The notes under the pieces are model-generated. The model was not told the DNA's origin, did no database searches, and saw only the letters and a program-made list of their open reading frames with translations. Positions 14,244 to 29,513 of a stretch of DNA of 64,000 bases are shown here, in pieces; the stretch's first letter is position 1, and every line of letters begins with the position of its first letter. Origin of the DNA: Tianweitania sediminis (GTDB lineage: Bacteria; Pseudomonadota; Alphaproteobacteria; Rhizobiales; Rhizobiaceae); the NCBI RefSeq assembly GCF_017813335.1, contig NZ_JAGIYY010000001.1, forward strand, positions 1,352,001 to 1,416,000, given 5' to 3'. Both the position numbers and the translations under genes were made by a program.

Positions 14244-14279
14244 GAGGGCGGCTGTTTTTCATAACGGAGGAGAAGAACC

Positions 14280-15248
14280 ATGACACTGAACTGCCTGAAA
14301 AAACGCATGCTCCTGTCGGCTGCGGCAATTGCCGTTGCCATGCCCTTGAGCGCTGGACATGCTCAGGAACGCGACGTGAAGATCGCAGTTTCCATCCCTG
14401 CTGCCACCCACGGTTGGACTGGTGGCGTGGTTTACCATGCCGAGCAGGCGGAGAAGGAAGTCGAAGCCGCATTCCCGAACATCGACGTCATCGTTTCCAC
14501 GGCCTCTTCGGCCTCGGCACAGGTGTCTTCGCTTGAAGATCTTTCGGCAACGCAGGACCTCGACGCACTGGTGATCCTGCCGTTCACGTCGGAAGAACTC
14601 ACCGGGCCCGTGGAGCAGGTGAAGGCCAAGGGCACCTTCGTCGCCGTGGTGGACCGCGGCCTCACCGATCCGTCGGTGCAGGACCTTTATGTCGCCGGCG
14701 ACAACATCGCCGTTGGCGCTAACACCGCCACCTGGCTTTCGGAGAAACTGGGCGGCGAGGGCGAGATCGTGGTTCTTCGCGGCATCCCCACCGTGATCGA
14801 CGACGAACGCATCAAGGGCTTCTCGGATGTGATCGCCAAGTCCAACATCAAGATTCTCGACATCCAGTATGCGAACTGGAATCAGGACGAAGCCTTTCAG
14901 TTGATGCAGGATTACCTTGCGAAGTATCCGAAGATCGACGCTGTTTGGGCCAACGACGACGACATGCTGCTCGGGGTGATCGAAGCCGTGGAGCAGGCTG
15001 GCCGCAGCGACATCAAGTACATGCTCGGCGGCAATGGCATGAAGCAGGTCATCGAGATGGTGAAGGAAGGCGACGAGCGCACGCCGATCTCCACCCCTTA
15101 TCCGCCGTCCATGATCAAGTCGGCCGTTTACATGGTTGCGGGCCAGTTTAACGGACAGGCCCCGATGCGCGGTTCGTTCCTTCTGGATGCACCGCTGATC
15201 ACACCGGAAAACGCCGACCAGTTCTATTTCCCAGACTCGCCATTCTGA
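14280..15248 (+). CDS. Periplasmic sugar-binding protein (RbsB-like)
   Basis: This 322-residue peripla_BP_4-type binding protein begins with a Sec signal peptide (positive start, hydrophobic LLSAAAIAVAMPLSAGHA, cleavage probably after GHA) and then VKIAVSIPAATHGWTGGVVYHAE. The ribosome-binding site GGAGGAGAAG is strong. The order ATPase, permease, binding protein is normal for this transporter class. A hairpin at 15257-15282 follows at once and may raise the level of this part of the transcript relative to the next gene. Confidence 0.92.
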   Translation: MTLNCLKKRMLLSAAAIAVAMPLSAGHAQERDVKIAVSIPAATHGWTGGVVYHAEQAEKEVEAAFPNIDVIVSTASSASAQVSSLEDLSATQDLDALVILPFTSEELTGPVEQVKAKGTFVAVVDRGLTDPSVQDLYVAGDNIAVGANTATWLSEKLGGEGEIVVLRGIPTVIDDERIKGFSDVIAKSNIKILDIQYANWNQDEAFQLMQDYLAKYPKIDAVWANDDDMLLGVIEAVEQAGRSDIKYMLGGNGMKQVIEMVKEGDERTPISTPYPPSMIKSAVYMVAGQFNGQAPMRGSFLLDAPLITPENADQFYFPDSPF

Positions 15249-15256
15249 TCAACGAG

Positions 15257-15282
15257 AAGGTGTCCCTTTAACGGGGCACCTT
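15257..15282 (+). terminator. Intercistronic hairpin after the binding-protein gene
   Basis: AAGGTGTCCC and GGGGCACCTT form a 10-bp stem with one G-U pair around a short loop, followed by TTTC. It lies in the 62-base gap between the binding protein and the DJ-1 family gene, so it probably acts as a partial terminator or as a 3' stabiliser for the transporter message. Confidence 0.6.
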
Positions 15283-15310
15283 TCATCGCAGCACACAACA
15301 GGAGACCACC

Positions 15311-15898
15311 ATGAGCGGCAAGAAGATCCTCATGCTGACCGGTGAATTCACCGAGGAATACGAAATCTTTGTTTTCCAGCAGGGGATGGAGGCAGTCGGT
15401 CATACCGTTCACGTCGTTTGCCCTGACAAGAACGCGGGCGATCGCATCAAGACGTCCCTGCACGATTTCGAGGGCGACCAGACCTACACGGAAAAGCTCG
15501 GCCACTACGCTGACATCAACAAGACCTTTTCCGAGATCAACATCGAGGAATATGACGCGATCTATGCGGCTGGCGGCCGCGGGCCTGAATACATCCGCAC
15601 GGACAAGCGGATCCAGGGCTTCGTTCGCTATTTCCATGAGAGCGGCAAGCCCATCTTCACGATCTGCCACGGCGTGCAGATCCTGATGGCAGTTCCCGGC
15701 GTGTTGAAGGGTCGCAAGGTTGCAGGACTTGGCGCCTGCGAGCCGGAAGTCACCGCGGTGGGCGGCATCTATGTCGATGTGAGCCCGACCGAAGCCTATG
15801 TGGACGGCAACATGGTTTCCGCAAAAGGCTGGACTGCGCTTGCTGCCTTCATGCGCGAATGCATGAATGTACTCGGCACGAAGATCACCCACAGCTGA
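15311..15898 (+). CDS. DJ-1/PfpI family protein
   Basis: This 195-residue protein has the class-I glutamine-amidotransferase-like fold of the DJ-1/PfpI superfamily: KKILMLTGEFTEEYE at the N-terminus with a conserved-type glutamate, the loop AAGGRGPEYIR, and the nucleophile elbow TICHGVQIL with the reactive cysteine followed by histidine. Members act as glyoxalases, deglycases, hydratases or proteases. Its place at the end of a sugar-type ABC operon suggests a role in processing the imported compound or a reactive carbonyl derived from it; this is inference. The ribosome-binding site is AGGAG. Confidence 0.82.
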   Translation: MSGKKILMLTGEFTEEYEIFVFQQGMEAVGHTVHVVCPDKNAGDRIKTSLHDFEGDQTYTEKLGHYADINKTFSEINIEEYDAIYAAGGRGPEYIRTDKRIQGFVRYFHESGKPIFTICHGVQILMAVPGVLKGRKVAGLGACEPEVTAVGGIYVDVSPTEAYVDGNMVSAKGWTALAAFMRECMNVLGTKITHS

Positions 15899-16823: not shown

Positions 16824-17717
16824 GTGGTGCGGTTTCGAATTGGCGAGATTACGGTTACGCGTATCGAGGAAGTGCTGGAGAAAGGTTTCCGTCCGGAGAA
16901 CCTGTTCCCGGGTTTCGATTCCGCAATCTTCGATCAGCATCCCATCCTGCGTGACTTCTTTGACGAAGAAAGCGGTCAGGTTTGGTCAAGCATCCATTCC
17001 TGGCTGGTGCAGGTCGATGGCCTGAACATCCTCGTTGATACGTGCTCGGGCAACGGCAAGGTGCGCGCGCTGCCGCGCTTCCAGCGCTTCCACATGCTCG
17101 ACTTCCCCTTCATCGACACTCTGGCGGCAGCTGGCATTACGCCGGAAGAGGTCGACATCGTCTTCTGCACGCATTTGCACATCGATCATGTCGGGTGGAA
17201 CACCCGGCTTGAGAACGGTCGCTGGGTACCAGCGTTTCCAAATGCTCGTTATATCTTCGGTCGCGCCGAGTTCGACCATTGGACGAACGGCGACGGGCCA
17301 CGGCTCTTCCCTGATAACGTGGCGGTGATTGAGGACAGCGTGCTGCCGGTGGTTGAGGCAGGCTTGGTGGAATTCGTAGAGGACGGCGACGAGATTGTGC
17401 CCGGGTTGCGCGTCGAGCTGGCGCCTGGCCATACCGCCACGCAGCTCATCCTAAAGCACGAGGCGCCGGGTGGTGGCTTCGTGATCTCGGCCGACGTCAT
17501 CCACCAGCCGATCCAGGTGTACGCGCCGCATCTCAACTCCTGCTTCTGCGAGATACAGGATGCCGCGCGCACCACGCGGCGCAAGCTTCTCGATCATTGT
17601 GCAGGCACCGGCGCGATTCTTTTGCCTATGCATTTCGGCCCACCGCATGCCGGCAAAATCCATCGTGCCGGCATGGGCTTTGCCTTCGAACCCGCAGAGG
17701 CCGCCGTTCCGGCCTGA
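16824..17717 (+). CDS. Metallo-beta-lactamase-fold hydrolase
   Basis: This 297-residue MBL-fold protein has the metal motif HLHIDH at residues 117-122 and the later ELAPGHTATQ and FVISADVIH segments that provide further metal ligands. The family includes lactonases, thioesterases and phosphodiesterases; the layout here (long N-terminal part, HSWLVQVDGLNILVDTC) is that of quorum-type lactonase-like hydrolases. The GTG at 16824 has a GGGGAGG Shine-Dalgarno. It is the first gene of the operon behind the IclR-type site, so it may open a lactone intermediate for the isomerase that follows. Confidence 0.82.
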   Translation: MVRFRIGEITVTRIEEVLEKGFRPENLFPGFDSAIFDQHPILRDFFDEESGQVWSSIHSWLVQVDGLNILVDTCSGNGKVRALPRFQRFHMLDFPFIDTLAAAGITPEEVDIVFCTHLHIDHVGWNTRLENGRWVPAFPNARYIFGRAEFDHWTNGDGPRLFPDNVAVIEDSVLPVVEAGLVEFVEDGDEIVPGLRVELAPGHTATQLILKHEAPGGGFVISADVIHQPIQVYAPHLNSCFCEIQDAARTTRRKLLDHCAGTGAILLPMHFGPPHAGKIHRAGMGFAFEPAEAAVPA

Positions 17718-17773: not shown

Positions 17774-19030
17774 ATGGGCTACACGATTACCGAAAAGATC
17801 CTCGCCCGCGTCTCGGGACGCGTTGCCGTAAAAGCCGGCGACGAAGTCATGGCCAAGCCCGACTACGTCATCGCCTACGATTTCCCCGGCTATACTGATG
17901 TGTATTTCCGTCAAATGAAGGAGGATTTCGGCATCGAGCGGGTGGCTGAGCCCGACCGCTATGCGATCTTCATCGACCATATGGTGCCGGCGACCTCGCC
18001 AAAGGAAGAGGAACTGCATATCGGCACCCGCACATGGTGTGCCGAAAACAACGTCGCCCTTTATGAGCGCAAGGGCATCGGCCACCAGGTCGCTTCCGAG
18101 GTCGGCTATGCCGTGCCCGGCGCTTTTGTCGTGCACTTCGATGGCCATATCAGCCAGCTTGGGACTTTCGGCACACTTGCCATGGGCATCCGCCGCAACC
18201 TGCTCGAGGCGTTCGTACGCGAGCGCATCTCGATCAAGGTACCCCAGACAGTGCGGGTGAACTTAACCGGTACGTTGCGGAAGGGAGTGATGGCCCGCGA
18301 CGTGTTCCACCATCTCGTGCGCGTTATGGGTCCGGCCTCATGTCGTTTCCAGGTGCTGGAGATAGGCGGGCCGGCTTTGTCGCAGATTTCTACCGAGGGC
18401 CTCCAGACCATCACCGGGCTGGCGATGTTTACCGGCGCGGTAACGGCGATCGTCAACCCGGACAAGGAGAGGCTTGATTATGCGCTTGCCCGCGCGAAAA
18501 AGCAGCTTGAGCCGGTTTATAGCGACCCAGAGGCCAGCTATTCGGCGGTTTACGAGATCGACCTCGACAATTTAGAGCCGCTGGTGGTGATCCCGCCCAC
18601 GCCGGCCAACTCGCGCAATCTCTCGGAGTTCCTGGGCTTGGAGATCCACGCCGGCTATCTGGGTTCCTGCGCCTCTGGCCGCCTCGACGACCTGCGCATC
18701 GCTGCGAAAATCCTCGAAGGTCGTCAGGTGAAGTCAGGCTTCCAGCTTAACGTGGTGCCGACCAGTCAAGAGATCATGGCGGCAGCTGGCCGTGAGGGGC
18801 TGATCTCGACGTTGGCTGAGGCCGGCGCTTTCATCTCTTCGCCGAGCTGCGACTACTGCTTCGGCCGCATCGCTACAATGACCGAGAAGCAGCGCGCCGT
18901 TTCCACCGGTACCCTCAACGTACGCGGCCGAATGGGTAGCCCGGACTCGGAAATCTATCTCTGCAACGCGGCAACGGTCGCCGCCTCGGCGATCGAAGGC
19001 GCGCTGGCCGACCCGCGCAAGTATCTGTGA
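17774..19030 (+). CDS. Aconitase-superfamily hydratase/isomerase, large subunit (LeuC-like, divergent)
   Basis: This 418-residue protein follows the LeuC plan and keeps the three cluster cysteines, C299 in GSCASGRLDDL and C359 and C362 in SCDYCFG, so a 4Fe-4S cluster is expected. Other signature parts differ: the usual DSHT is DGHI at residue 123, and SCTNGR is SCASGR. It lies 10 bases before its small subunit and just upstream of a C-C lyase gene. Known relatives isomerise or dehydrate isopropylmalate, homocitrate, citramalate or dimethylmalate; the altered residues argue for another hydroxy-acid. The ATG at 17774 has a GAGGAAA ribosome-binding site. Confidence 0.85.
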   Translation: MGYTITEKILARVSGRVAVKAGDEVMAKPDYVIAYDFPGYTDVYFRQMKEDFGIERVAEPDRYAIFIDHMVPATSPKEEELHIGTRTWCAENNVALYERKGIGHQVASEVGYAVPGAFVVHFDGHISQLGTFGTLAMGIRRNLLEAFVRERISIKVPQTVRVNLTGTLRKGVMARDVFHHLVRVMGPASCRFQVLEIGGPALSQISTEGLQTITGLAMFTGAVTAIVNPDKERLDYALARAKKQLEPVYSDPEASYSAVYEIDLDNLEPLVVIPPTPANSRNLSEFLGLEIHAGYLGSCASGRLDDLRIAAKILEGRQVKSGFQLNVVPTSQEIMAAAGREGLISTLAEAGAFISSPSCDYCFGRIATMTEKQRAVSTGTLNVRGRMGSPDSEIYLCNAATVAASAIEGALADPRKYL

Positions 19031-19040
19031 GCCCTGTGCG

Positions 19041-19553
19041 ATGACCCTTCAGAACCTGCGCGGCCGCGTTGCCTTCATCTTCGATGAAATCAATTTCGAC
19101 GTCGACCAGATCGTCGGTGTCAAGAACATCAAGATTACCGACATCGAGGAACTGTCGGCCGCCGCGATGACCTCGTACGATCCAGATTTTCATGCCTCGG
19201 TGAAGCCCGGCGACGTGCTCGTCGGCAACCACAATTTTGGTTACGGCCACCCGCACTACCCGCCTATGCGCGCCATGCGCCACCTCGGCATCAAGGGTGT
19301 GATCGCGGAGTCCTTCTCTCCTGGCTATTGGCGCGGCGAGATCTCCATGGGCTTCCCCCAGGCAAGCTGCCCCGGCATCTTGGAACTGGTGAACCGCTGG
19401 GACGAGGTGGAAGTCGACTGGGACAAAAACGAGGTGCGCAACCTCACGACCGGCAAGTCTCTGCCGATTGAGCCGCTGTCATTTGCCGACCGCGAGATGC
19501 TCGATGCTGGCGGCCTCACGGAATATCTCAAACGCCCCGTCCCCGCCTCCTGA
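19041..19553 (+). CDS. Aconitase-superfamily hydratase/isomerase, small subunit (LeuD-like, divergent)
   Basis: This 170-residue swivel-domain subunit would complete the active site of the LeuC-like protein. It keeps the NFG turn at residues 65-67 and the later GVIAESFSPGYWR, which stands where LeuD has the 'AxSFARIF' strand. The canonical GSSREHA, whose serine and arginine hold the substrate carboxylate, is replaced by GHPHYPP (residues 69-75). Loss of that arginine should change substrate recognition. Length and position right after the large subunit are normal for the family. Confidence 0.82.
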   Translation: MTLQNLRGRVAFIFDEINFDVDQIVGVKNIKITDIEELSAAAMTSYDPDFHASVKPGDVLVGNHNFGYGHPHYPPMRAMRHLGIKGVIAESFSPGYWRGEISMGFPQASCPGILELVNRWDEVEVDWDKNEVRNLTTGKSLPIEPLSFADREMLDAGGLTEYLKRPVPAS

Positions 19554-19576
19554 CCTTCCTTTGAAAGGATTTCAAC

Positions 19577-20470
19577 ATGCGAGAGCATATCCAGAGCGAC
19601 TACAAGCAGCGCGTGCTGGCCCAGAAGACCGTCTGGGCTGCCGGTGCCTACGATGCGCTTTCGGCCCTCTATATACAAAATGCCGGCTTCGATGCAGTCA
19701 TGACCAGCGGCTTCGGCGTGTCGGCCTCCTATCTGGGCATGCCCGATGCCGAACTCTACACCATGACCGAGAACCTCACGGTCGTGCGCAACGTCTCGGC
19801 CGTGCTGAAGGTGCCGCTGATCGCGGACATCGACACGGCCTATGGCAACGCCATCAACGCCATGCGAACGGTGCGTGAGTTCGAGGCTGCGGGCTGTGCC
19901 GCTGTGATCATGGAGGATCAGGTTTCGCCAAAACGCTGCCCGATCTGCGTCGGCGGCGTCGAAATCGTTTCGGTCGACGAGGCAGTCGGCAAGATTGCAG
20001 CGGCCGTAGAAGCGCGCAGCAATCCTAACATGCTGATCATCGCGCGCACCGATGCCGCGACCGAGGAAGAGGCGATCCATCGCGCAAAGGCCTACGTCGC
20101 TGCCGGCGCCGATGTGATCCAGCCAATCAGCAAGTGCTTCAAGTCGATCGAGGGACTGCGCGCGCTGCGCGAAGCCTGCGGCGTGCCACTGTCGCTGCAG
20201 GTTCTGGGATGGCTGGAAAAGAACCTGTCACCTGAAGAGATTGAGAGCGTTGCCGGCATGGCAACCTTTGCGTTGGTGCCGCTGATGAGCGCGGCCCAGG
20301 CGCTCGAAGAAAACCTTGCCGTTCTTGCCCGCGACAAGACCTCACGTAATCTGCCGCGCCCGGTCGCCGCGCATGATCCGTTTGTTGAGTTCATCGGCTT
20401 CAAGGAAATCGAGGAAAAGCAGCTCAAATATCTGCCCGAGCAGAACACGACCACCTGGAAGGCCGCGTAA
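19577..20470 (+). CDS. Isocitrate lyase / PEP mutase family carbon-carbon lyase
   Basis: This 297-residue TIM-barrel enzyme belongs with methylisocitrate, 2,3-dimethylmalate and related lyases. The metal motif DIDTAYG (84-90) and EDQ (113-115) are present, and the catalytic cysteine is in KRC (119-121). The usual KRCGH loop is KRCPI here, so the histidine that follows in the classical lyases is missing. Products would be an oxo-acid such as pyruvate or glyoxylate plus a second acid. Pairing with an aconitase-type isomerase mirrors the methylcitrate and dimethylmalate routes. The ribosome-binding site is GAAAGGA. Confidence 0.85.
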   Translation: MREHIQSDYKQRVLAQKTVWAAGAYDALSALYIQNAGFDAVMTSGFGVSASYLGMPDAELYTMTENLTVVRNVSAVLKVPLIADIDTAYGNAINAMRTVREFEAAGCAAVIMEDQVSPKRCPICVGGVEIVSVDEAVGKIAAAVEARSNPNMLIIARTDAATEEEAIHRAKAYVAAGADVIQPISKCFKSIEGLRALREACGVPLSLQVLGWLEKNLSPEEIESVAGMATFALVPLMSAAQALEENLAVLARDKTSRNLPRPVAAHDPFVEFIGFKEIEEKQLKYLPEQNTTTWKAA

Positions 20471-20550: not shown

Positions 20551-22134
20551 ATGCCTGACCGTGCGACGCCGCATTACCTGACACTGGCCAACGGACAGAT
20601 CAGGCTTTGGCAGCGTGGGGCAGGACCCGACCTTGTCGTGCTCGGCGGCTTGACTCGCGCCGCGGAAGTTCTGGCGAACGAACTTGCTCTCGCCAATCCC
20701 GGTTGCCGCGTGACGGCGCTTGAACTGCCTGGCATCGGCGGCTCGCGCATAGAGCCGAGCGGCGATGCTGAAATGGCTGCCGACCATGTCGTGAAGGCAC
20801 TTGCAAGCTTTGCGGAGCTCGCACTGATAGCTCATGAGATGGCAGCGGGCCTTCTGCCGGCGATTCTGCGCAAGCTCGGACGCGAAGTGCCGGTTATCAC
20901 CGTGGGCTTGGAACGGTCCCTTGCCTGGAGGGGGAGCGTTTCAGCCGAACTAGACATCACGCCACGGCAAGACGGTACACACCTCACCCTGCTTTGGCAC
21001 CATCTGCGCGATCGCGAACTGCTGGAGCCGGAAAATACAGGTCAACCTGCGAAAGTGGGCGAGCCGATTTCTCCGGCGGAAGATCTGAGTGCGACCTTTG
21101 TTGCGGCAGCCACCATGCCGTCGGGCTATGCGCGGTTGTGGTCGCTCTGCCATCGGACGATCGGCGAGGCCGCGAAGCTCGAAGGCTGCCGACATGTGGC
21201 ACTGCTTTCGGACGTGGCGGGCGCGCTCGCCGGCTTGCGCATATCGGTTTCGGGCAACGCACTGCCGCCCGCTCGGGCGCTGCCGAACAACGCCATCTGG
21301 CACGACTCGATCATGACGAGCCGCGGGCTCATGCATCTGCGCCGTGCTGGCGAGGGCGGAAGGCCGCTGCTCGTTATTCCGACCGGCGGCGGCTCCTCGG
21401 CGCAATTCGCGCCCGTGGTGAGCGGGCTTGCGCGCGGGCGGCAGGTCTTTGCCGTCGACTACTTTGGCAACGGCTTGTCTGAAAAGCTCGATCGTGACGT
21501 GACCATCGACATGCTGGCCGAGGACATGGCGGCGCTGATCGAAGCACTAGGCTTCCAAGAGGTCGATGTCTGGGGCTCTCATACAGGCTCGCTGGTCGCG
21601 CTGGAACTTGCTGTCACGCGTCCCGACCTCGTGCGCCGCGCCGTGCTGGAAGGCCCGGTCTTCATTGATCCGGATTTTCAGGCTGATCTTCTCGACAACT
21701 ACTTCCCACAGATTCGTCCAGACAAATGGGGCCTGCACCTCCAACTTGCGTGGCACTGGCGGCGCGACATGTTCATGTACTGGCCGTGGTATCGCGTCGA
21801 CCGCGCTGCTGCGCGCGACCTCGGCGTGCCGAGCGCGGAGGACCTGCACCTTTATACCATTGGCATCTTGGAGAGCGGACTCACGTATGACCAAGCCTAT
21901 CGATCCGCCTTCAAATACGACACCGTCAGACGCCTACCCTTGCTCAAGCGGCAGGCGCTGATCTGCGCGGGACCAAACGACATGCTTGTCAACGGCGTGG
22001 AGGAGTCGGCGAAACTGAACGTGCCGAGTGTGGAAACAACGTTAACCCCTACGACCGTTTGGTGGCCCGCGCCGGAGGCTGCGGCCGCTCAAGCCACGCT
22101 CGACCTTTACGACGCGTTTCTCAGCCGACCCTGA
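20551..22134 (+). CDS. Two-domain alpha/beta-hydrolase-fold protein lacking the catalytic serine
   Basis: The 527 residues split into two alpha/beta-hydrolase-like halves. In the first (about 1-250) the nucleophile elbow reads A-H-E-M-A with glutamate at residue 96. In the second (about 258-527) it reads G-S-H-T-G with histidine at residue 344 where the serine of GxSxG should be. The second half otherwise looks intact, with VDYFGNGLSEK and VWGSHTGSLVALELAVTRPDLVRRAVL. It could be a lyase-like or binding member of the fold. It is the last gene of the operon, 80 bases after the lyase; that gap holds an imperfect GC-rich hairpin. Its stop lies within the palindrome shared with the facing gene. 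Confidence 0.75.
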   Translation: MPDRATPHYLTLANGQIRLWQRGAGPDLVVLGGLTRAAEVLANELALANPGCRVTALELPGIGGSRIEPSGDAEMAADHVVKALASFAELALIAHEMAAGLLPAILRKLGREVPVITVGLERSLAWRGSVSAELDITPRQDGTHLTLLWHHLRDRELLEPENTGQPAKVGEPISPAEDLSATFVAAATMPSGYARLWSLCHRTIGEAAKLEGCRHVALLSDVAGALAGLRISVSGNALPPARALPNNAIWHDSIMTSRGLMHLRRAGEGGRPLLVIPTGGGSSAQFAPVVSGLARGRQVFAVDYFGNGLSEKLDRDVTIDMLAEDMAALIEALGFQEVDVWGSHTGSLVALELAVTRPDLVRRAVLEGPVFIDPDFQADLLDNYFPQIRPDKWGLHLQLAWHWRRDMFMYWPWYRVDRAAARDLGVPSAEDLHLYTIGILESGLTYDQAYRSAFKYDTVRRLPLLKRQALICAGPNDMLVNGVEESAKLNVPSVETTLTPTTVWWPAPEAAAAQATLDLYDAFLSRP

Positions 22135-22151
22135 TCGCATGCGCGATCAGG
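22130..22151. terminator. Bidirectional palindromic terminator containing both stop codons
   Basis: CCTGATCGC and GCGATCAGG form a perfect 9-bp stem around ATGC. The TGA of the plus-strand hydrolase lies in the left arm and the TGA of the minus-strand LivF-like gene in the right arm. No U-tract follows on either side. The genes are convergent and only 12 bases apart. Confidence 0.6.
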
Positions 22152-22839
22152 ACATGTAGGCCTCAAGAACTTCCGGGTTTTCCTTTAGGACCGACGCCGT
22201 TCCTTCAATCACGATCTGACCGCGCTTCATGACGTAACCATAGTCGCACACAGAAAGCGCAATCGCCGCGTTCTGCTCAACCAGCAGAATCGACTGACCT
22301 TCCTTGTGGAGTTCGACGATCGACTGGAAAACAAGATCGACGATGGCCGGCGCCAAGCCCATCGAGGGCTCATCCAGCACCAGCATCTGCGGTTTGGTCA
22401 TGAGTGCCCGGCCGATCGCAAGCATCTGCTGTTCGCCGCCGCTCATCAGGCCGGCGAGTTGGCGCCGTCGATCGGCAAGGCGAGGGAAAAGCGTGTAGAC
22501 CTTGTCGAGCAGCGACGGCTCAGAGCGGCCCGAGAAGTGGCTGAGCTTGAGATTTTCTTCAACGGTCAGAGGCGCAACGACCATCCTGCCTTCCGGAACA
22601 AAGGCGAGGCCGGACTTAACCACGCGGTGCAAGGAAAGTCGGGAAATCTCCTGGTCGTTGAGCTTCACGGAACCGCCGATCGGGCGATGCAAGCCAGCGA
22701 TGCTCCTCAGCGTCGTCGACTTGCCAGCTCCATTGGCGCCTAGCAGAACGCAAAGGGAGCCGGCGCTGACCTGCAGATCAACGCCGCGCACGGCGTTGAT
22801 TGCGCCGTAGCTAGCGGAGAGACTTGATACGTTCAGCAT
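22147..22839 (-). CDS. Liv-type ABC transporter ATP-binding protein (LivF-like)
   Basis: This 230-residue ATPase shows Walker A GANGAGKST, the LivF-type VPEGRMVVAPLTVEENL, signature MSGGEQQM, Walker B MLVLDEPSMGL and the H-loop region ILLVEQNAAIAL. I take the start at 22839 (MLNVSSLSASYG); it overlaps the LivG-like gene by 29 bases. It is the last gene of the island's importer operon, which is probably controlled by the IclR-type promoter at 26803-26860. Confidence 0.93.
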   Translation of the reverse strand: MLNVSSLSASYGAINAVRGVDLQVSAGSLCVLLGANGAGKSTTLRSIAGLHRPIGGSVKLNDQEISRLSLHRVVKSGLAFVPEGRMVVAPLTVEENLKLSHFSGRSEPSLLDKVYTLFPRLADRRRQLAGLMSGGEQQMLAIGRALMTKPQMLVLDEPSMGLAPAIVDLVFQSIVELHKEGQSILLVEQNAAIALSVCDYGYVMKRGQIVIEGTASVLKENPEVLEAYMS

Positions 22840-23620
22840 CGTTCTTCCGTCCGAAATAGGCTTCCTGCACGTCTGGATTGGCAATGCAGCTTCTTGGGTC
22901 CCCTTCAGCAAGCAACTGGCCGAAGTTCATCACTGTGCAGCTATCGCAGAACTCGGTCACGAGACCCATGTTGTGCTCCACCATCAGGATCGTGATTCCG
23001 GCGTCGCGCAGTTCGTGCACGAGGAGGCCAACTGCGGTGGCCTCGGCATGGTTCATGCCCGCGGTTGGCTCGTCGAGCAGCAGGAGCCGAGGATTAGAAC
23101 CAAGCGCCCGGGCAATCTCGATACGGCGCTGCTCGCCATATGACAAAGTCTCTGCAAGCTCGTCAGCTGTATGATCCATTGCCACCCGCTTCAGAAGGTG
23201 CATGGCGTGTTCACGCACGCGCTTCCAGTCGTTGCGGGCCGACGGTAGGCCTAGGAAGGAACTGAATAGACCCGCCTTGCGCTCAAGAAAACAGCCGGTC
23301 ATCACCTGTTCCAACACGGACATGCCGCTGAAAAGGCGAACGTTCTGGTAGGTGCGGGTTATTCCGAGCCCGGCGATCTGCTGCGGCTTCATCTTCTCCA
23401 GGTGGCGACCGGCAAAGTGGATCTGACCCTCATCGGGGTGGAGCAAGCCTGTGATCAGATTTATCAGCGTGGTCTTGCCTGCGCCATTGGGGCCGATCAG
23501 GCCGTGCACGCTGCCTTGGCGCACATGCGCAGTCAGCCCACCAACGGCCGCCACGCCGCCAAAGCGCTTAACCACGCTGTTTACTTCTAGCAGAAGGGGT
23601 TGGGAAGCGACCTCAAGCAT
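22811..23620 (-). CDS. Liv-type ABC transporter ATP-binding protein (LivG-like)
   Basis: This 269-residue ATPase has Walker A GPNGAGKTT, the LivG-type GITRTYQNVRLFSGMSVLEQVM, signature LSYGEQRR, Walker B LLLLDEPTAGMN and the H-loop ILMVEHNMGLV. The ATG at 23620 has a GGAGAAG ribosome-binding site; ten further residues are possible upstream but add nothing to the domain. It overlaps the LivM-like gene by 8 bases. Confidence 0.93.
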   Translation of the reverse strand: MLEVASQPLLLEVNSVVKRFGGVAAVGGLTAHVRQGSVHGLIGPNGAGKTTLINLITGLLHPDEGQIHFAGRHLEKMKPQQIAGLGITRTYQNVRLFSGMSVLEQVMTGCFLERKAGLFSSFLGLPSARNDWKRVREHAMHLLKRVAMDHTADELAETLSYGEQRRIEIARALGSNPRLLLLDEPTAGMNHAEATAVGLLVHELRDAGITILMVEHNMGLVTEFCDSCTVMNFGQLLAEGDPRSCIANPDVQEAYFGRKNDAERIKSLR

Positions 23621-24506
23621 GGGTCTTCTCCGCTTCATGCTCGATGTCACGACGGCGCTTGGCCGCGCGGCGCAACCCGATGGCTCGTGGGTCGATCAGC
23701 CCGCGAGGCAGGAAAACCATAATGAGGATCAGCACGACGCCTTTGGCGACATCCTCGACGGCGGGCACCACGGCCTGCATGGCGGCTGGTAACGCTGTGA
23801 AGATCAGTGCGCCCACGATCGGCCCAAACCAGTGGAAGGAGCCGCCGAGCACCGTCGATGCGATCATGGTGAAGGCGATGCCGATGAAGTAAGTGTCGGG
23901 GGAGATGAACTGCAGCGTAAAAGCCAGGGCTGCGCCACCCAATCCGCCTACGGCGCCGCTGATTAGAAAAGCCGTGAACTGGATACGGTAAGGGCTGATA
24001 CCCATGGTTGAGGCGACGGCAGCATCTTCACGAACGGCCCGCGAAGCCAAGCCGTACCAGCTGTTGTGAAGGCGGTAGAAAACCAGGGTGGTGACGGTGA
24101 GCAGCACAAACAGTTCGAATTGGGAGATCGTGACCGGAACAACGAGGCCGTTGACGCCACCGGTCAAGCCCGGCGTGTTGAGGGCGGTTACACGGGTGAT
24201 AAGCACCAGGGCGAGGCTCGCGAGCGCCATCCAGTGGGATTCAAGACGCAAGAACAGCGAGGCGACAACAGCCGCCCCCAACCCGCCGCCGATCCCGGCG
24301 ATGAGAAAGGCAAGGTAAACATGCAGCCCGAATTGACCAACCATCTGGGCGGCCAGGAAGCCACCAATTGCAGCGAAAGTGACGGTGGTGAAGCTCAGTA
24401 CTCCGGTTGACAGAACCGCATAGGTTGAGAGCGCAAAAAAGGCGTTAGCCATCGCAAAGGTGACAGTGCTGCCATAGGCGGCCCAGAAGTCGAAAAGGGC
24501 TTCCAT
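23613..24506 (-). CDS. Liv-type ABC transporter permease (LivM-like)
   Basis: This permease of 297 residues has the LivM pattern, with about eight to ten hydrophobic segments, STGVLSFTTVTFAAIGGFLAAQ near residue 35 and the C-terminal STVLGGSFHWFGPIVGALIFTALP block. The usual FGHA(A/M) element is replaced by FTTV, an odd variation. A TTG three codons upstream overlaps the LivH-like stop (TTGA), so either start would couple the two genes. Confidence 0.88.
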   Translation of the reverse strand: MEALFDFWAAYGSTVTFAMANAFFALSTYAVLSTGVLSFTTVTFAAIGGFLAAQMVGQFGLHVYLAFLIAGIGGGLGAAVVASLFLRLESHWMALASLALVLITRVTALNTPGLTGGVNGLVVPVTISQFELFVLLTVTTLVFYRLHNSWYGLASRAVREDAAVASTMGISPYRIQFTAFLISGAVGGLGGAALAFTLQFISPDTYFIGIAFTMIASTVLGGSFHWFGPIVGALIFTALPAAMQAVVPAVEDVAKGVVLILIMVFLPRGLIDPRAIGLRRAAKRRRDIEHEAEKTHA

Positions 24507-24508
24507 GT

Positions 24509-25396
24509 TCAAGCTCTCGAAAAGTTGGCGCTGCCGAACAGCCCGCGTGGGCGGATGATCAGGAATGCGAGCAGCAGAGTGTAGGTCACGCCGTCCCGGA
24601 ATGCAGTGGAGATGTACTGCGCCACGAACACCTCAATGATGCCGAGCATGATGCCCGCGACCGCTGTTCCCCGCACATCGTTGAAACCGCCAACAACTAC
24701 GGCCGCAAAGCCCTTCAGCATCAGCCCTTCACCAAGCGTGTAGGAGACGTTTGAAGTCGCGATGCCACCGAGCACACCCGCGAGACCTGACGTCGCGCCC
24801 GCCATGAAGGCGGTCAGAAGGATGATGACGCGTGAGTTGACGCCGGAAATGGCTGCCGCGACATCGTTCCACCCCACCGCGCGCATGGCTGCTCCAATCC
24901 TCGCGCGCTGGATCAGGAGATGTATCGCAATCGTGCAGATTATCAGCGACAGGATGATGATGATCTGCATCTGCGGGACGCGCAGGGGCCCAATCTGGAC
25001 CATGGCATTCGGGTAGCTGCTTGCGGGGAAGGCGAGGCTCTGGTGACCGGTCGCACTTCCCGCCAAGCTGTCGAGGATAATCCAGAAGCCGATGCTGGTG
25101 ATCAAGGCGCCCAGCATGCCCATGCGCCTTGACCGCAACGGCTGGAAGCCGATCTGGTCGACGAGGATGGCGAGAATGCCACCCCCGAAGACACCGCAAA
25201 GAACAGCGACAGGAAAAGGAACCCCATACCACTGGAACACATAATAGCCGACAATGGCTGCCCAGCTGGCATAGGCTCCGTGTGCAGCGTTCAGGATGCC
25301 GAGCGTCGAAAACACCAGGCCAAAGCCAATGCCAAAAAGGGCATAAAGCGAACCAAGAGCCCAGCCGTTGATCAGCTGCTCGACAAAAAGCTGCAT
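24509..25396 (-). CDS. Liv-type ABC transporter permease (LivH-like)
   Basis: This 295-residue inner-membrane permease carries the LivH markers FGIGFGLVFSTLGILNAAHGAYASWAA and, near the C-terminus, GFAAVVVGGFNDVRGTAVAGIMLG. The ATG at 25396 follows an AAGG-type ribosome-binding site and is two bases from the stop of the binding-protein gene; six further codons upstream would overlap that gene. It pairs with the LivM-like protein to form the channel. Confidence 0.92.
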   Translation of the reverse strand: MQLFVEQLINGWALGSLYALFGIGFGLVFSTLGILNAAHGAYASWAAIVGYYVFQWYGVPFPVAVLCGVFGGGILAILVDQIGFQPLRSRRMGMLGALITSIGFWIILDSLAGSATGHQSLAFPASSYPNAMVQIGPLRVPQMQIIIILSLIICTIAIHLLIQRARIGAAMRAVGWNDVAAAISGVNSRVIILLTAFMAGATSGLAGVLGGIATSNVSYTLGEGLMLKGFAAVVVGGFNDVRGTAVAGIMLGIIEVFVAQYISTAFRDGVTYTLLLAFLIIRPRGLFGSANFSRA

Positions 25397-25398
25397 GC

Positions 25399-26556
25399 TT
25401 AGTTGCCTTCCCAAGTCGTAATCTTGCCGTCCTTGGTCCAGGCGGCAATCAGCGCCTTGTCGACATCGGCCTGACCTTCCTTCATCGGCAGACCGCCATA
25501 TACGTTTGGCGTGATTTCGGCGATCGAAGCCATGGCATTGGCGAGAGCTTCACGGGTCGGCTCGCCGTCAAGTGACTTCAGGCCTTGGGCAATGTAGCGC
25601 ATCGCAGTATAGCCTTGAGCGGCGTAGGTGTCTGGCGACCCGTTGAACTTCGCTTCGTAGGCTTCTGCGAACGCTTTTGCTTCCGGGGACGTGGAGATCT
25701 CTGCTGCGAAGCTGGTCGGGAAGGGAATACCAGCCAAGGGCTCGCCGATGCGCTCAAATACTGGAGCAGGCGAGATAACGTCGGATGCACTGATGTGCCC
25801 CTCGTAACCACGTGCACGAAGTGCGGCGATGATGCCGGCCGCTGGTGTCTGCGTAGTCCAAACCATGATCAAGTCTGGGTTTGTGGCGATCGCCTGTGTA
25901 GCCGGCGCGGTAAAGTCGGTGTCTGCCGAAAGGATGCTGACAACTCCGCCGGTCTTGATGCCAGCTTCTTCCATGACCTCCTGTGCGGCCTTGAAGCGGC
26001 CCTGAAAGCCGTCATTGTCGGCATTCACGAAGTAGGTGACCGTCTTCGGCGCCAGCTTTTCCGCCAGCATCTTGGTCATCTTCACTTCTTGCGGCCCAGG
26101 CAGAACGACGATGGAGGTGACGTAAGGCAGTTCCGGCAAGCCCGGGCGGGTGGCGCCGTAAAGCACAAGTGGCATTTTCTGGGCGATGGCTACGGGCTTT
26201 ACCGCGCCGGCGACCGGCGAAAGGATGCAGCAACTGACCGCCAGCACATCACGGTCGGCGATGAACTGTGTGAGCGCCTGAACCGAACGCGCGGCATCCG
26301 AGCCGCTTTCCTTTTCAACCAGCTCGAGCTCGACACCCTTACCCGCAGACTCTTCGGCGTTGATCTGTTCGATTGCGAGCTGTGCGCCATGGAGATACGA
26401 ATTGCCGGCCGCGGCAAGAGGGCCGGTCGCTTCCGAGATAAAGCCGATCTTGTATTCGCCGGCGTCTGGCTCGGCGAAGGCCGCATTGGGCGCCATCGCC
26501 CCGCTGAGCGCCAGGATCGAGGCGGCAAACCTCAAGCTGAATTTGCGAATTCTCAT
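25399..26556 (-). CDS. Periplasmic substrate-binding protein of the island's Liv-type transporter
   Basis: This 385-residue peripla_BP_6-type protein starts with a clear Sec signal peptide (MRIRKFSLRFAASILALSGAMAPNAAFA) and then EYKIGFISEATGPLAAAGNSYLHGAQLAIEQINAEES. The GGGAGGAG ribosome-binding site just before 26556 fixes the start; the longer frame to 26727 has no such site. It begins the importer operon, about 240 bases after the predicted transcription start, so the leader is long. Co-regulation with the isomerase-lyase operon suggests that it binds the pathway's substrate. Confidence 0.9.
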   Translation of the reverse strand: MRIRKFSLRFAASILALSGAMAPNAAFAEPDAGEYKIGFISEATGPLAAAGNSYLHGAQLAIEQINAEESAGKGVELELVEKESGSDAARSVQALTQFIADRDVLAVSCCILSPVAGAVKPVAIAQKMPLVLYGATRPGLPELPYVTSIVVLPGPQEVKMTKMLAEKLAPKTVTYFVNADNDGFQGRFKAAQEVMEEAGIKTGGVVSILSADTDFTAPATQAIATNPDLIMVWTTQTPAAGIIAALRARGYEGHISASDVISPAPVFERIGEPLAGIPFPTSFAAEISTSPEAKAFAEAYEAKFNGSPDTYAAQGYTAMRYIAQGLKSLDGEPTREALANAMASIAEITPNVYGGLPMKEGQADVDKALIAAWTKDGKITTWEGN

Positions 26557-26802
26557 GGAAACTCCTCCCGTTTTACCCGGCGCGGCCTGCGAGCCACCCG
26601 GCATGCGACCCGGACCCGTTCCGCGAACGGTGCCCGTATCATTCTCGATCGAACAAGCGCCGTCTTTCACGGGCGGAAATTCCGCGCGCGGCACTCTTCC
26701 GACATTGTTCTGGAATGAAGCCGCCACAGCGGCGAATAGGGACCGTGGCTGCAGCCAATTCTGGCTACTTTGGCTTCGTTCCTCCCTTAATCCTCACGAC
26801 GA

Positions 26803-26877: not shown

Positions 26878-27717
26878 TCAGTGGCCGGCGCGTAGACGGC
26901 GCTCCAGTTCGCCGGCCGCCCTTTGCATCCGCTCAAGGTGAACGGGCTTGCCACGGTTAACCAGTTGCGGGGTCAGGCCGGCAATGGACAGCGCGCAGAC
27001 GATCTCGCCGGCCGTGTCGCGCACTGGAACGGCAATCGCGGAGAGGCCCAAAGCCACGTCATCCACGGCCAGTTCCCAACCGCGCTTGCGTATCCTCATC
27101 AGTTCCGCGCGCAGCTTTTCCGGCTCGACGATGCTCTTAGACGTCAGCGCCGCCATCGGGCGCTTAAGCACCTCATCAATCTCGTTGTCAGGGCGAAAGG
27201 CTAGCAGCAGCTTTGGCGCGCCGCCGCAGTTGAACTGAAGGACGCCGCCCACCGCCCACCAGTGAACCTCGATGCCACGCATGTCGTGGATGCGTTCCAA
27301 GCAGACCGCGTCGTTGTTGTCGTAAACCGACAGGAAGGCGGTGATGTGCAGTTCGGCCGCCAGCTCGTTCAGGATCGGCAGGGCCAACGCGCGCAGGTCA
27401 AAATCGCCGGTCACGTCGGCTGCCAGTTCGCGGATCGCAAAGCCGAGGCGATATTGCTGAGTCTGCGCATCCTGCATAATAAAGCCGTTGTCCATCAGCG
27501 TCAGCAGCAGGCGACGCGTGGTGCCCTTGTCGAGGCCAGTCGCGACAGTCACCTCCGCCAACGTTTGGCCGCTCTTGCCGGCAAAGGATTTCAACACGCG
27601 CAACGCGCGCGACACCGCCCTGACATTGTGCGTGGCCGCGCCTTTGTCTTCCACCTGACTAATCTTGCTCACCGGCTCTCCGCGTTTCAATGTTCGACCT
27701 CCTGCCGCCTGAGCCAT
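26878..27717 (-). CDS. IclR family transcriptional regulator
   Basis: This 279-residue regulator has an N-terminal winged helix (VSRALRVLKSFAGKSGQTLAEVTVATGLDKGTTRRLLLTLMDNGFI) and a C-terminal IclR effector domain with GIEVHWWAVGGVLQFNCGGAPKLLLAF and VDDVALGLSAIAVPVRDTAGEIVCALSIAGLTPQ. The ATG at 27717 has a GGGAG site; a TTG two codons earlier is possible. It lies between the importer operon and the divergent FAD oxidase, and three matching sites in the island point to a local regulon with this protein as the likely activator. The effector is unknown. Confidence 0.9.
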   Translation of the reverse strand: MAQAAGGRTLKRGEPVSKISQVEDKGAATHNVRAVSRALRVLKSFAGKSGQTLAEVTVATGLDKGTTRRLLLTLMDNGFIMQDAQTQQYRLGFAIRELAADVTGDFDLRALALPILNELAAELHITAFLSVYDNNDAVCLERIHDMRGIEVHWWAVGGVLQFNCGGAPKLLLAFRPDNEIDEVLKRPMAALTSKSIVEPEKLRAELMRIRKRGWELAVDDVALGLSAIAVPVRDTAGEIVCALSIAGLTPQLVNRGKPVHLERMQRAAGELERRLRAGH

Positions 27718-27755
27718 GCCCAATCTCCACTCCCGGTTACAAGCCCAGAGATACT

Positions 27756-27905: not shown

Positions 27906-29513
27906 ATGTCAATGACGTCACACGTCCGTGCGGACGATTTTATGGCGGTGGAGAAGCTTCGTCAGACACTGGGCGAAGAGCGTGTGCTGGCCGACCAGCC
28001 AACGCGGGACTTCTATGCCAACGACATCTTCTGGCAGCCGGGCATTCCCCCTCTGGCGATCGTCATGCCACAATCGGCCGAGGACGTGGTGGCCGCCGTG
28101 AAGCTTGCAACGGAGGAGGGGCTTTCCGTAGTCCCGCGTGGCGGCGGCATGTCCTATACCAAAGGATACTTGCCCGATCGCGCCGATTCCGTCGTGATTG
28201 ATACACGCAAGATCGACGACATCATCGAGCTCAGCGCCGACGATCTTTATGTGACCGTCGGCGCCGGCTGCACTTGGGACAAGCTGAACGCCGCACTCGA
28301 ACCGAGCGGACTGCGAACCGGCTACTGGGGGCCGCTTTCCGGCGTCAACGCCACGATCGGAGGCGCGTTGTCGCAAAACAGCGCCTTTTTTGGCTCGGCG
28401 CTGAACGGCACAGTGGCCGAAACGGTGCTGGGCGTGACAGTTGTTTTGGCCGATGGTCGCAAGGTCACCACGGGTTCGGGCGGGCGCACGGGTGCCAAGC
28501 CATTCTCGCGCTATGGCGGGCCGGATTTCACCGGCATCTTCCTCGGCGACAATGGCGCCTTCGGCATCAAGGTTTCGGCGACGCTGCGGCTCTGGCCGCG
28601 CCCAAAGGAGGTCGGCTACCTGTCCTTCGGCTTCAAGTCGATGCTAGACATGGCGCTCACCCAAACCGAGATGGCGCGCACGCGATACGTAGCGGAAGGC
28701 TTCGGCATCGACCGCAACAAGGCTGGCCATTCTGCGAGCGTCAACCGCATCTCCGACGGGCTGAAGACGTTGGCGAACGTGGCGGGCGCCGGCAAGACCA
28801 TGTTCCAGGGCCTGAAGGATGCCGCAGCTGTTGTGGCTGGCGGCACGTCCTTTCTGAAGGCGCACAATTTCACGTTGCACATCGTCACCGAGGCGGATTC
28901 GCCCGAGGCGCTGGCCGTCAAGATGAAGCGGCTGCGCGAGATCGGCGGCAAGGCAGGCACAGAGATCGAGAACACGGTGCCCAAGGTTATGCGCTCCAAG
29001 CCGTTCTCGCCGGTGCGCGGCATGCTCGGCCTCAACGGCGAGCGCTGGGTGCCGATCCATGCCGTCTTCCCACTAAGCGCGGCAAAACAGGTGATAGAGG
29101 TCAACGACGGCTTCTTCGAAGAGCGCAAAGCCTTCATGGAAGAGCATGGTATTCTTTATTCCGTGATGAGCATGACTGTGGGCAACGAGTTCTTCCTGGA
29201 GCCCGCCTTCTACTGGGAGGACGAGATCACCCCGCTGCATGCGAAAAGCATAGGTGAGGAAACGGTGCGCCCCTGGATGAACCGCCCCGCCAACCCGCGA
29301 TCGCGCAACGCCGTCGCCAAGCTGCGCCGCCGCACGCAGGAGCTCTACGCCAGCCTTGGCGGCGTCAGCTGGCAGGTCGCACGCGACTACCCGTACGCGG
29401 AGCTGCTCGAGCCCGAAACGCTGTCCTTCGCGGAAAGCATCAAGAAGGCTCTCGACCCTTCCGGCCTGATGAACCCGGCTTCGCTGGGGCTAACTGGCCG
29501 GCAGCCCGACTAG
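27906..29513 (+). CDS. FAD-dependent oxidase/dehydrogenase (GlcD/VAO fold)
   Basis: This 535-residue flavoenzyme has a PCMH-type FAD-binding domain in the first half (IVMPQSAEDVVAAVKLATEEGLSVVPRGGGMSYTKGY, then NATIGGALSQNSAFFGSALNG and the late GIFLGDNGAFGI) and a C-terminal cap ending DPSGLMNPASLGL. That end is typical of the glycolate-oxidase/D-lactate/vanillyl-alcohol-oxidase superfamily. A soluble oxidoreductase for a 2-hydroxy-acid or hydroxylated aromatic is likely. It is transcribed away from iclR behind the IclR-type site, so it probably catalyses a step of the same pathway. Purine-rich GGGGGGCAGG precedes the ATG. Confidence 0.85.
   Translation: MSMTSHVRADDFMAVEKLRQTLGEERVLADQPTRDFYANDIFWQPGIPPLAIVMPQSAEDVVAAVKLATEEGLSVVPRGGGMSYTKGYLPDRADSVVIDTRKIDDIIELSADDLYVTVGAGCTWDKLNAALEPSGLRTGYWGPLSGVNATIGGALSQNSAFFGSALNGTVAETVLGVTVVLADGRKVTTGSGGRTGAKPFSRYGGPDFTGIFLGDNGAFGIKVSATLRLWPRPKEVGYLSFGFKSMLDMALTQTEMARTRYVAEGFGIDRNKAGHSASVNRISDGLKTLANVAGAGKTMFQGLKDAAAVVAGGTSFLKAHNFTLHIVTEADSPEALAVKMKRLREIGGKAGTEIENTVPKVMRSKPFSPVRGMLGLNGERWVPIHAVFPLSAAKQVIEVNDGFFEERKAFMEEHGILYSVMSMTVGNEFFLEPAFYWEDEITPLHAKSIGEETVRPWMNRPANPRSRNAVAKLRRRTQELYASLGGVSWQVARDYPYAELLEPETLSFAESIKKALDPSGLMNPASLGLTGRQPD

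Follow-up and report, generated by a model that had tools for sequence, protein, structure and literature searches.

A LeuC-, LeuD- and PrpB-like gene trio with altered substrate loops in Tianweitania sediminis

The Dmd (2,3-dimethylmalate) genes have a LeuC-, LeuD- and PrpB-like make-up. A trio of the same kind lies in the window analysed here, the whole 64,000-nucleotide stretch of Tianweitania sediminis contig NZ_JAGIYY010000001.1 from position 1,352,001 to 1,416,000 (assembly GCF_017813335.1). Its proteins differ from their relatives at the loops that would hold the substrate. As these substrate-gripping parts appear to have been rebuilt together and kept since, the trio probably breaks down an organic acid that is not known as a substrate of such enzymes.

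The aconitase superfamily is usually taken to be marked by its serine alkoxide and GSSRE loop. In PMC8184944, Ser642 acts as the general base of aconitase, and a serine at the equivalent position is proposed for this role in AcnX. PMC7308503 describes GSSRE as a motif shared by all small isopropylmalate isomerase (IPMI) subunits and related aconitases, and gives the recognition loop of the small subunit a role in substrate recognition. For isocitrate lyase (ICL), the core of C2-C3 cleavage is described as Asp108, Cys191 and Arg228, with Glu182 judged an unlikely participant (PMC7609661), and the contacts to succinate include Glu285 and Asn313 (PMC8099091).

The trio and its altered loops

The trio consists of three intact, consecutive open reading frames (ORFs) on the forward strand, separated by 10 and 23 bases, and encodes a LeuC-like (aconitase-family) large subunit of 418 residues (17774..19030), a LeuD-like small (swivel) subunit of 170 residues (19041..19553) and a lyase of the ICL/PEP-mutase family of 297 residues (19577..20470). 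All three were assigned from their ORFs, NCBIfam models and PDB alignments, together with Pfam, conservation and trees for the large subunit and the predicted fold for the lyase. The loops located below lie on the same strand. In the host genome the LeuC-like/LeuD-like pair is present as a single copy. The other large-subunit matches there are one LeuC, which the trees place with biosynthetic LeuC, and one AcnA-like protein, named by its length, both at 26-35% identity over local alignments; the sole further match to the lyase is weak and on another contig. A role in leucine biosynthesis was rejected because the host genome carries separate LeuC- and LeuD-like genes.

Relatives were collected in a one-genome-per-species scan with two small-subunit motifs from which the altered loop was excluded; this yielded 102 relatives, and the 80 best were taken further. 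At 81 small-subunit loci we found 80 large-subunit, 81 small-subunit and 78 lyase homologues, and 79, 81 and 76 of these, the window included, had enough coverage to be aligned. The alignments leave out the L052 large subunit (contig end), the L056 lyase (broken frame) and the L107 lyase (different subfamily). Where a partner is missing, the locus lies at a contig end (L073 for the large subunit; L086, L098 and L106 for the lyase).

The large subunit scores 210.8 bits with the Pfam Aconitase model (cut-off 28.7) and falls below the curated cut-offs of all 19 NCBIfam models listed (best 357.8 against 385). Its motifs include VHFDGHISQ, SCASGR and SCDYC, and the cluster cysteines C299, C359 and C362, which match those of aconitase, are present in 79 of 79 aligned large subunits. 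Using aconitase numbers that correspond to the pig aconitase chain index plus one, the Asp/His set around the open iron is also retained in all 79, with H147, D165 and H167 appearing as H104, D123 and H125. The surroundings are changed. At the DSHT of aconitases the PDB alignment places DGHI (residues 123-126; 18140..18151), turning S166 into G124, which is found in 78/79 large subunits with proline in L107. SCASGR (residues 298-303; 18665..18682) replaces SCTNGR with the first cluster cysteine retained; its C, S301, G and R are invariant (79/79) and A300 occurs in 74. In the alignment to the pig aconitase chain, GTLN (residues 379-382; 18908..18919) sits at YNRN, so that R447 becomes L381 and N446 becomes T380, and R452 corresponds to R386; T380, L381, N382 and R386 are each present in 79/79.

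The small subunit reads NFGYGHPHYPPM, and its GHPHYPP loop (residues 69-75; 19245..19265) stands in place of GSSREHA or GSSREQA. By PDB alignment, and with a correspondence between GSSRE positions and aconitase residue numbers that we in part assume, Ser642 is replaced by His70, S643 by Pro71 and R644 by His72. The serine general base is thus absent from the aligned small subunits, with His70 in 81/81, and HPHYPP is invariant (81/81). Deeper small subunits differ slightly, with GHPHAPP in L160 and GHPHYPA in L159 and L147. At the substrate-recognition loop, VGVKNIK (residues 25-31; 19113..19133) aligns with 2pkp so that K31 falls at the arginine of the homoaconitase loop; this residue is lysine in 80 of the 81 and arginine in one, N29 occurs in 81/81 and K28 in 75/81. 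The small subunit lies below the cut-off of all seven NCBIfam models, with TIGR02087 a near miss at 108.2 against 108.95 (0.75 bit).

The lyase scores 143 bits with Pfam PEP_mutase (cut-off 31.5). Asp108, Cys191, Arg228 and Glu182 of ICL are retained as D57, C121, R157 and E113, and the catalytic Asp, Glu, Cys and Arg together with the metal Asp pair (D57, D84, D86, E113, C121, R157) are each present in 76/76 lyases. KRCPI (residues 119-123; 19931..19945) stands at the KRCGH of PrpB and ICL in the PDB alignment. K119 and C121 are invariant (76/76), position 122 is proline in 73 and alanine in three, and position 123 is I in 27, A in 39, C in 9 and L in one. Q182-P183-I184 and S206-L207-Q208 also occur in 76/76. 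Matching ICL positions to a PrpB-type chain as we take them to correspond, the place of Glu285 lies in QPIS without a glutamate and that of Asn313 is taken by Gln208; L164, outside the 76 aligned lyases, has methionine at the Gln208 position. The predicted structure has a mean predicted local distance difference test score (pLDDT) of 87, with runs below 50 only in two loops and the C-terminus, and its best PDB matches are methylisocitrate lyases (TM-score 0.81). The protein falls outside PrpB as curated, scoring 183.7 bits against a TIGR02317 cut-off of 354.4 and carrying KRCPI instead of KRCGH. As the cleavage residues are invariant, the Glu and Asn positions are replaced and the fold is like that of methylisocitrate lyases, the lyase is predicted to retain its cleavage engine with the pocket for the acid half altered.

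A first-pass annotation of this DNA had noted the three cluster cysteines, DGHI and SCASGR in the LeuC-like subunit, GHPHYPP in the LeuD-like subunit and KRCPI in the lyase, and all are present in the ORFs and PDB alignments. KRCPI describes the window correctly; as a signature of the family it is better read as K-[RKS]-C-[PA]. The same annotation spoke of a lost arginine, which holds for R644 (His72) but understates the change, with Ser642 (His70), S643 (Pro71), R447 (Leu381), S166 (Gly124) and the lyase Glu and Asn also replaced. Since the equivalents of Ser642, Ser643, Arg644 and R447 are all replaced, both the base and the carboxylate clamp would be lost, not just one arginine. Its suggestion of a substrate without a carboxylate is not established, as Lys31 (80/81) sits at the position of the homoaconitase arginine and a negatively charged group may therefore still be bound; Lys31 and His72 could hold a carboxylate.

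Conservation, distribution and phylogeny

The altered loops of the isomerase and the lyase occur together. In a regular-expression table of 100 loci, the 77 loci with GHPHxP have a KxCP lyase in 69 cases, a KxCA lyase in two and no readable lyase in six, and none has KxCG; the 17 loci with GSSREQ have KxCG in 17/17. The R447 position is leucine in 77/77 GHPHxP loci and arginine in the 13 readable of the 17 GSSREQ loci. As the GHPHxP loci form one clade, this co-segregation is best described as apparent joint retention rather than many independent changes.

One locus departs from this pattern. In L107 (Paraburkholderia humisilvae) the gene after the GHPHYPP pair encodes a lyase-family protein from a different subfamily (KHTN), the only such case among the 78 loci with a lyase hit, and among the aligned isomerases that of L107 alone has G124 replaced by Pro, K31 by Arg and R98 by Trp. 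Such a joint departure would follow from an intermediate common to isomerase and lyase, though this is a single case. L107 may use a second substrate.

The trio with its altered loops is present in bacteria of at least two phyla. Among the best 80 of the 102 relatives, all with a named group are Pseudomonadota, and two are given only as 'uncultured bacterium'. Within the window's own family, orthologues with 70% identity or more occur in 6 of 151 genomes, its own included; the genus is represented by two further genomes, and such an orthologue is found in neither. Across the phylum, four of 398 genomes (own included) contain the gene, the others at 61-65% identity; the remaining matches reach at most 37%, and no intermediate was found between 37% and the 61% floor of the clade in these 398 genomes. 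Plasmid records add seven relatives at 60-80% identity and one on a Rhodococcus opacus plasmid at 45.5% with the altered loops present. The Rhodococcus set retains YDFPGYTD, DGHIS, SCASGR, STGVLN, NFGYGHPHYPPM and ESFSPGFWRGE, and its lyase has PKSCPI. With HPHYPP present in 81/81 and unchanged in a relative of about 45% identity, drift is unlikely to explain the loop changes; drift or a pseudogene was rejected, as the frames are open and the replaced residues are invariant in 76-81 homologues.

Generic annotation labels hide how the trio differs. Four annotated plasmid records call its products only 'aconitase family protein', '3-isopropylmalate dehydratase' and 'isocitrate lyase/PEP mutase family protein', and one of the four lists the small subunit only. 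No paper on the trio was found in the open-access literature searched, and one may exist elsewhere.

Trees were built with a mixture model and bootstrap, sampling the clade at every fourth locus plus a few, with the Rhodococcus row added. The first quick trees joined long branches, and the later trees were rebuilt with rows dropped: L161_8, L163_4, L069 and L048 for the large subunit, and L107, L119, L158_4, L169_3, L069 and L048 for the lyase. The L067 lyase grouped inside the clade in the first tree and was counted as a clade member in the later one. The large-subunit clade, 23 rows including Rhodococcus, has support of 100/99 (bootstrap/Shimodaira-Hasegawa-like approximate likelihood ratio test) and is separate from biosynthetic LeuC, archaeal isomerases and the ordinary GSSREQ trio. 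The lyase clade (22 rows) is also supported at 100/99, and stands apart from PrpB (4 rows), the GSSREQ/KRCGH trio (15) and other lyases (11). These trees and the 77 GHPHxP loci without any KxCG bear out the expectation that the altered loops form one co-occurring clade. The proteins lie outside the LeuCD and PrpB reference clades that could be placed, with the Dmd clade represented by GSSREQ/KRCGH trios rather than by characterised DmdA, DmdB and Dml.

Nearest to the large-subunit clade are an HHSHPH type (99/86, two rows) and a GSIHSHP type (97/86, one row); the L145 and Rhodococcus rows were flagged as long branches in this tree. Because the HHSHPH and GSIHSHP branches are long and sampled by two rows and one, a single origin of the histidine loop is only a lead.

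Gene neighbourhood and proposed function

Upstream of the trio, at 16824..17717 (+), lies a lactonase-like hydrolase of the metallo-beta-lactamase (MBL) fold, whose cluster is found in 31/81 loci. Downstream are an alpha/beta hydrolase of 527 residues (20551..22134, +; 21/81 loci), a branched-chain-amino-acid-type (Liv) ATP-binding cassette (ABC) importer with two ATPases, two permeases and a binding protein (22147..26727, -), an IclR-family regulator (26878..27723, -; one of two IclR clusters, in 50/81 loci) and an oxidoreductase dependent on flavin adenine dinucleotide, of the glycolate oxidase/D-lactate dehydrogenase superfamily (27906..29513, +; 30/81 loci). The importer was assigned from sequence, cluster and synteny and the other four genes from NCBIfam and Pfam. 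Neighbour counts come from a simple ORF caller applied to the 81 loci, many with contigs ending close by. A sugar-type ABC importer and a DJ-1/PfpI-family gene lie further upstream (11698-15898) and do not seem to be conserved together with it; the cluster of the ABC ATPase is found in 3/81 loci.

An importer cluster (Liv, TRAP or NitT) is present in 69 of the 81 loci, with a Liv ATPase in 46, a TRAP permease in 19 and a NitT-type ATPase in 10, the TRAP and NitT labels being assigned partly by eye. Across the loci the importers vary between Liv ABC, TRAP, NitT ABC, Bug/TctC and MHS types. The accessory genes follow lineage and comprise the MBL hydrolase, flavin oxidase and alpha/beta hydrolase, or hydantoinase A/B with an old yellow enzyme (OYE)-type reductase, or coenzyme A (CoA) ligases with SCP2-type thiolases. 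This neighbourhood suggests that a carboxylic compound is taken up and degraded but does not single one out, and searches with the binding proteins found no specific ligand. Substituted maleates (from maleimides or tetrapyrroles), aryl- or alkylmalates and itatartarate were considered as substrates from the neighbouring genes and not adopted for lack of evidence. On the Rhodococcus opacus plasmid pRho-G13 (L171:3750-6904), an acetate/acetoacetate-CoA-ligase-like gene, an SCP2-type thiolase and MHS-type transporters lie near the trio. The ligase and thiolase hint that a lyase product is CoA-activated; a beta-keto acid product was considered from this pair and likewise not adopted for lack of evidence.

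Two further proteins accompany the trio in some loci. TRAP-type loci carry a conserved protein of 519-545 residues (L092:11424-13043 and eight other loci), a representative of which gave no sequence match in Pfam or NCBIfam (E <= 0.001) or in the PDB (E <= 1), and whose predicted structure, with a pLDDT of 45, was not used. A protein of 390 residues lies directly 3' of the lyase in L073 (1536-2708) and L050 (11311-12483), the latter with a P450-like gene nearby; the L073 copy, when scanned, matched nothing in Pfam, nor any NCBIfam model at E <= 1e-20.

A coordinated substrate change in isomerase and lyase is well supported by sequence. The first-pass annotation had proposed a different hydroxy acid on the strength of coordinated changes, and this fits our comparison, in which both enzymes seem to be altered at positions that bind a shared part of the substrate; a different substrate is the simplest reading for that reason. 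On balance we favour a catabolic module for a hydroxy acid outside the known substrates of such a pair, in which a [4Fe-4S] hydro-lyase or isomerase with a histidine (or tyrosine) base feeds an ICL-type lyase. An importer, Liv-type ABC here and TRAP, NitT-type ABC, Bug/TctC or MHS elsewhere, would take up the acid or a precursor, and in many genomes the lactonase-like MBL hydrolase, alpha/beta hydrolase and flavin oxidase may prepare or finish the acid. The LeuC-like/LeuD-like heterodimer would bind the [4Fe-4S] cluster and dehydrate and/or rehydrate the acid in aconitase fashion, in an order that we presume. In place of the serine base and arginine clamp it would use the histidine/tyrosine loop and the new recognition residues, with His70 or His72 as the candidate base. 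The intermediate would be shared with the lyase, presumably Mg-dependent, which would cleave the C2-C3 bond of the product to give a 2-oxo acid, possibly of the glyoxylate or pyruvate type, and a second acid.

Several observations weigh against this scheme. Loss of the base serine makes dehydratase chemistry uncertain. Importer type and accessory gene content vary by lineage, and the substrate may vary with them; on two Comamonadaceae plasmids the neighbours, annotated as of the fumarylacetoacetate-hydrolase family, fit no obvious single pathway. The co-segregation may reflect one ancestral event, given that the GHPHxP loci are one clade, and L107 is a single case. The lyase also lies about 5 kb away in L089 and L102, and about 5 kb upstream in L067.

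It is possible, if unlikely, that the heterodimer no longer isomerises by dehydration and hydration and that the same iron-sulphur pair carries out a different reaction. Such a change would be consistent with the loss of the Ser642 and R644 equivalents from 81/81 small subunits next to cluster cysteines and open-iron Asp/His residues kept in 79/79 large subunits, with nearest relatives that lack GSSRE (HHSHPH) or keep only its Gly-Ser (GSIHSHP), and with hydantoinase/caprolactamase-type genes near the trio in 9/81 loci. However, AcnX, although distant in sequence, still uses a serine as its proposed dehydration base (PMC8184944), and the conserved presence of an ICL-family lyase beside the pair favours a 2-hydroxy acid as the product. 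We consider it improbable that the trio is an ordinary 2,3-dimethylmalate/alkylmalate (Dmd-Dml-like) or methylcitrate-type pair in which loop variation is tolerated. The architecture is that of the GSSREQ/KRCGH trio of the same family and class, to whose two subunits those of the window are about 27-37% identical, and the lyase fold is closest to methylisocitrate lyase. Yet all three proteins fall short of the curated NCBIfam cut-offs for LeuC, LeuD, PrpB and related families, with one near miss, and the whole aligned clade has other residues in place of the base serine, two arginines and the Glu, Asn and His of the lyase; tolerated variation also sits poorly with the gap between 37% and 61% identity in the phylum and the altered loops in the 45.5% relative outside it.

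That the third enzyme is another type of the PEP-mutase superfamily (a hydrolase, decarboxylase or mutase), leaving no isomerase-lyase route, seems to us very improbable. The superfamily is functionally diverse, the pocket for the second carboxylate is changed, and the fold matches include PEP mutase and phosphonopyruvate hydrolase, but the lyase Lys-x-Cys, Asp, Glu and Arg are present in 76/76, the single PEP mutase row carries Asn instead of the Cys, and pairing with the isomerase is nearly universal. Decayed, non-catalytic copies are scarcely credible despite the loss of residues considered catalytic, since the frames are open, the replaced residues do not vary and identical loops are seen in another phylum at about 45% identity, all of which speaks for strong purifying selection.

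The module proposed here can be extended to a 'histidine-loop' branch of the aconitase superfamily, where a His-rich loop would have taken over from the serine base and arginine clamp, with the GSIHSHP, HHSHPH and GHPHYPP types as successive tree neighbours and iron-sulphur hydro-lyases of a new acid-base mechanism, within which the GHPHYPP family and its matched lyase would form a catabolic route for a hydroxy acid beyond the known isomerase-lyase routes. We put this broader picture forward tentatively, as it may well not hold in full. A family spread over two phyla appears to have replaced the serine and the GSSRE loop. If this is true, it would illustrate how such iron-sulphur chemistry can acquire both another base and another substrate, alongside a lyase whose corresponding pocket is altered. 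The conserved importer and regulator offer a way to find the missing substrate.

Comparison with known systems

A sequence search of the PDB found no solved relative with these loops. The best match for both subunits is the isopropylmalate/citramalate isomerase (4nqy/4kp1 for the large and 3vba for the small subunit), which shares the two-subunit plan, the three cluster cysteines and the Asp/His residues around the open iron. It differs in that its GSSRE, YLVYT, NRN and DSHT become GHPHY, NIKIT, TLN and DGHI in the window. Homoaconitase (4kp2, 2pkp) has arginine at the recognition-loop position of Lys31, both residues being basic; its remaining loops differ from the window as those of the isopropylmalate isomerase do, and it lies outside the window's clade. 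We take the source organism of all these structures to be Methanocaldococcus jannaschii. The 2-methylisocitrate lyase PrpB (1o5q, 3eoo, 1mum) shares its fold (TM-score about 0.8) and cleavage residues with the window's lyase at 31-34% identity. In place of its KRCGH the window's clade has K[RKS]C[PA]x; the acid-pocket Glu (presumably Glu188 in PrpB) is lost and the Asn (presumably Asn210) is replaced by Gln208.

The HHSHPH (L012, L015, L017) and GSIHSHP (L145/L169) types are LeuCD-like families that, like the window, have histidine-rich small-subunit loops without GSSRE, and their large subunits are about 36-38% identical to the window's. The three HHSHPH loci belong to the window's family and read NFGHHSHPHA, with DEPN for DSHT in the large subunits of L012 and L015. 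By eye, the neighbours of L012 and L015 are fumarase/tartrate-dehydratase-like and 2-hydroxyacid-dehydrogenase genes and those of L017 are Tct transporter genes; no lyase was found within the approximately 3.5 kb examined at these three loci. L145/L169 form a lyase-LeuC-LeuD trio with the small-subunit loop NFATGSIHSHPF and SCASGT. The GSIHSHP type retains only the Gly-Ser of GSSRE and has an R447-type arginine, whereas the window's clade has Leu381.

The closest system in layout is the GSSREQ LeuCD and KRCGH lyase trio of Alphaproteobacteria, which we presume to be DmdA/DmdB/Dml-like. We observed it in 22 loci (L011, L013, L014, L016, L018-L022, L024, L025 and L128-L138), and of the 142 genomes covered class-wide, 12 have a GSSREQ small subunit that scores above the cut-off of TIGR02087. 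A haloarchaeal plasmid of Halomarina (L175) also carries, by its annotation, a LeuCD and lyase trio beside Liv importer genes. The GSSREQ/KRCGH trio has the same three adjacent genes as the window and occurs in the window's own family, but it keeps the canonical serine/arginine loop and the Gly-His of the lyase, and its large subunit and lyase fall in different clades from those of the window.

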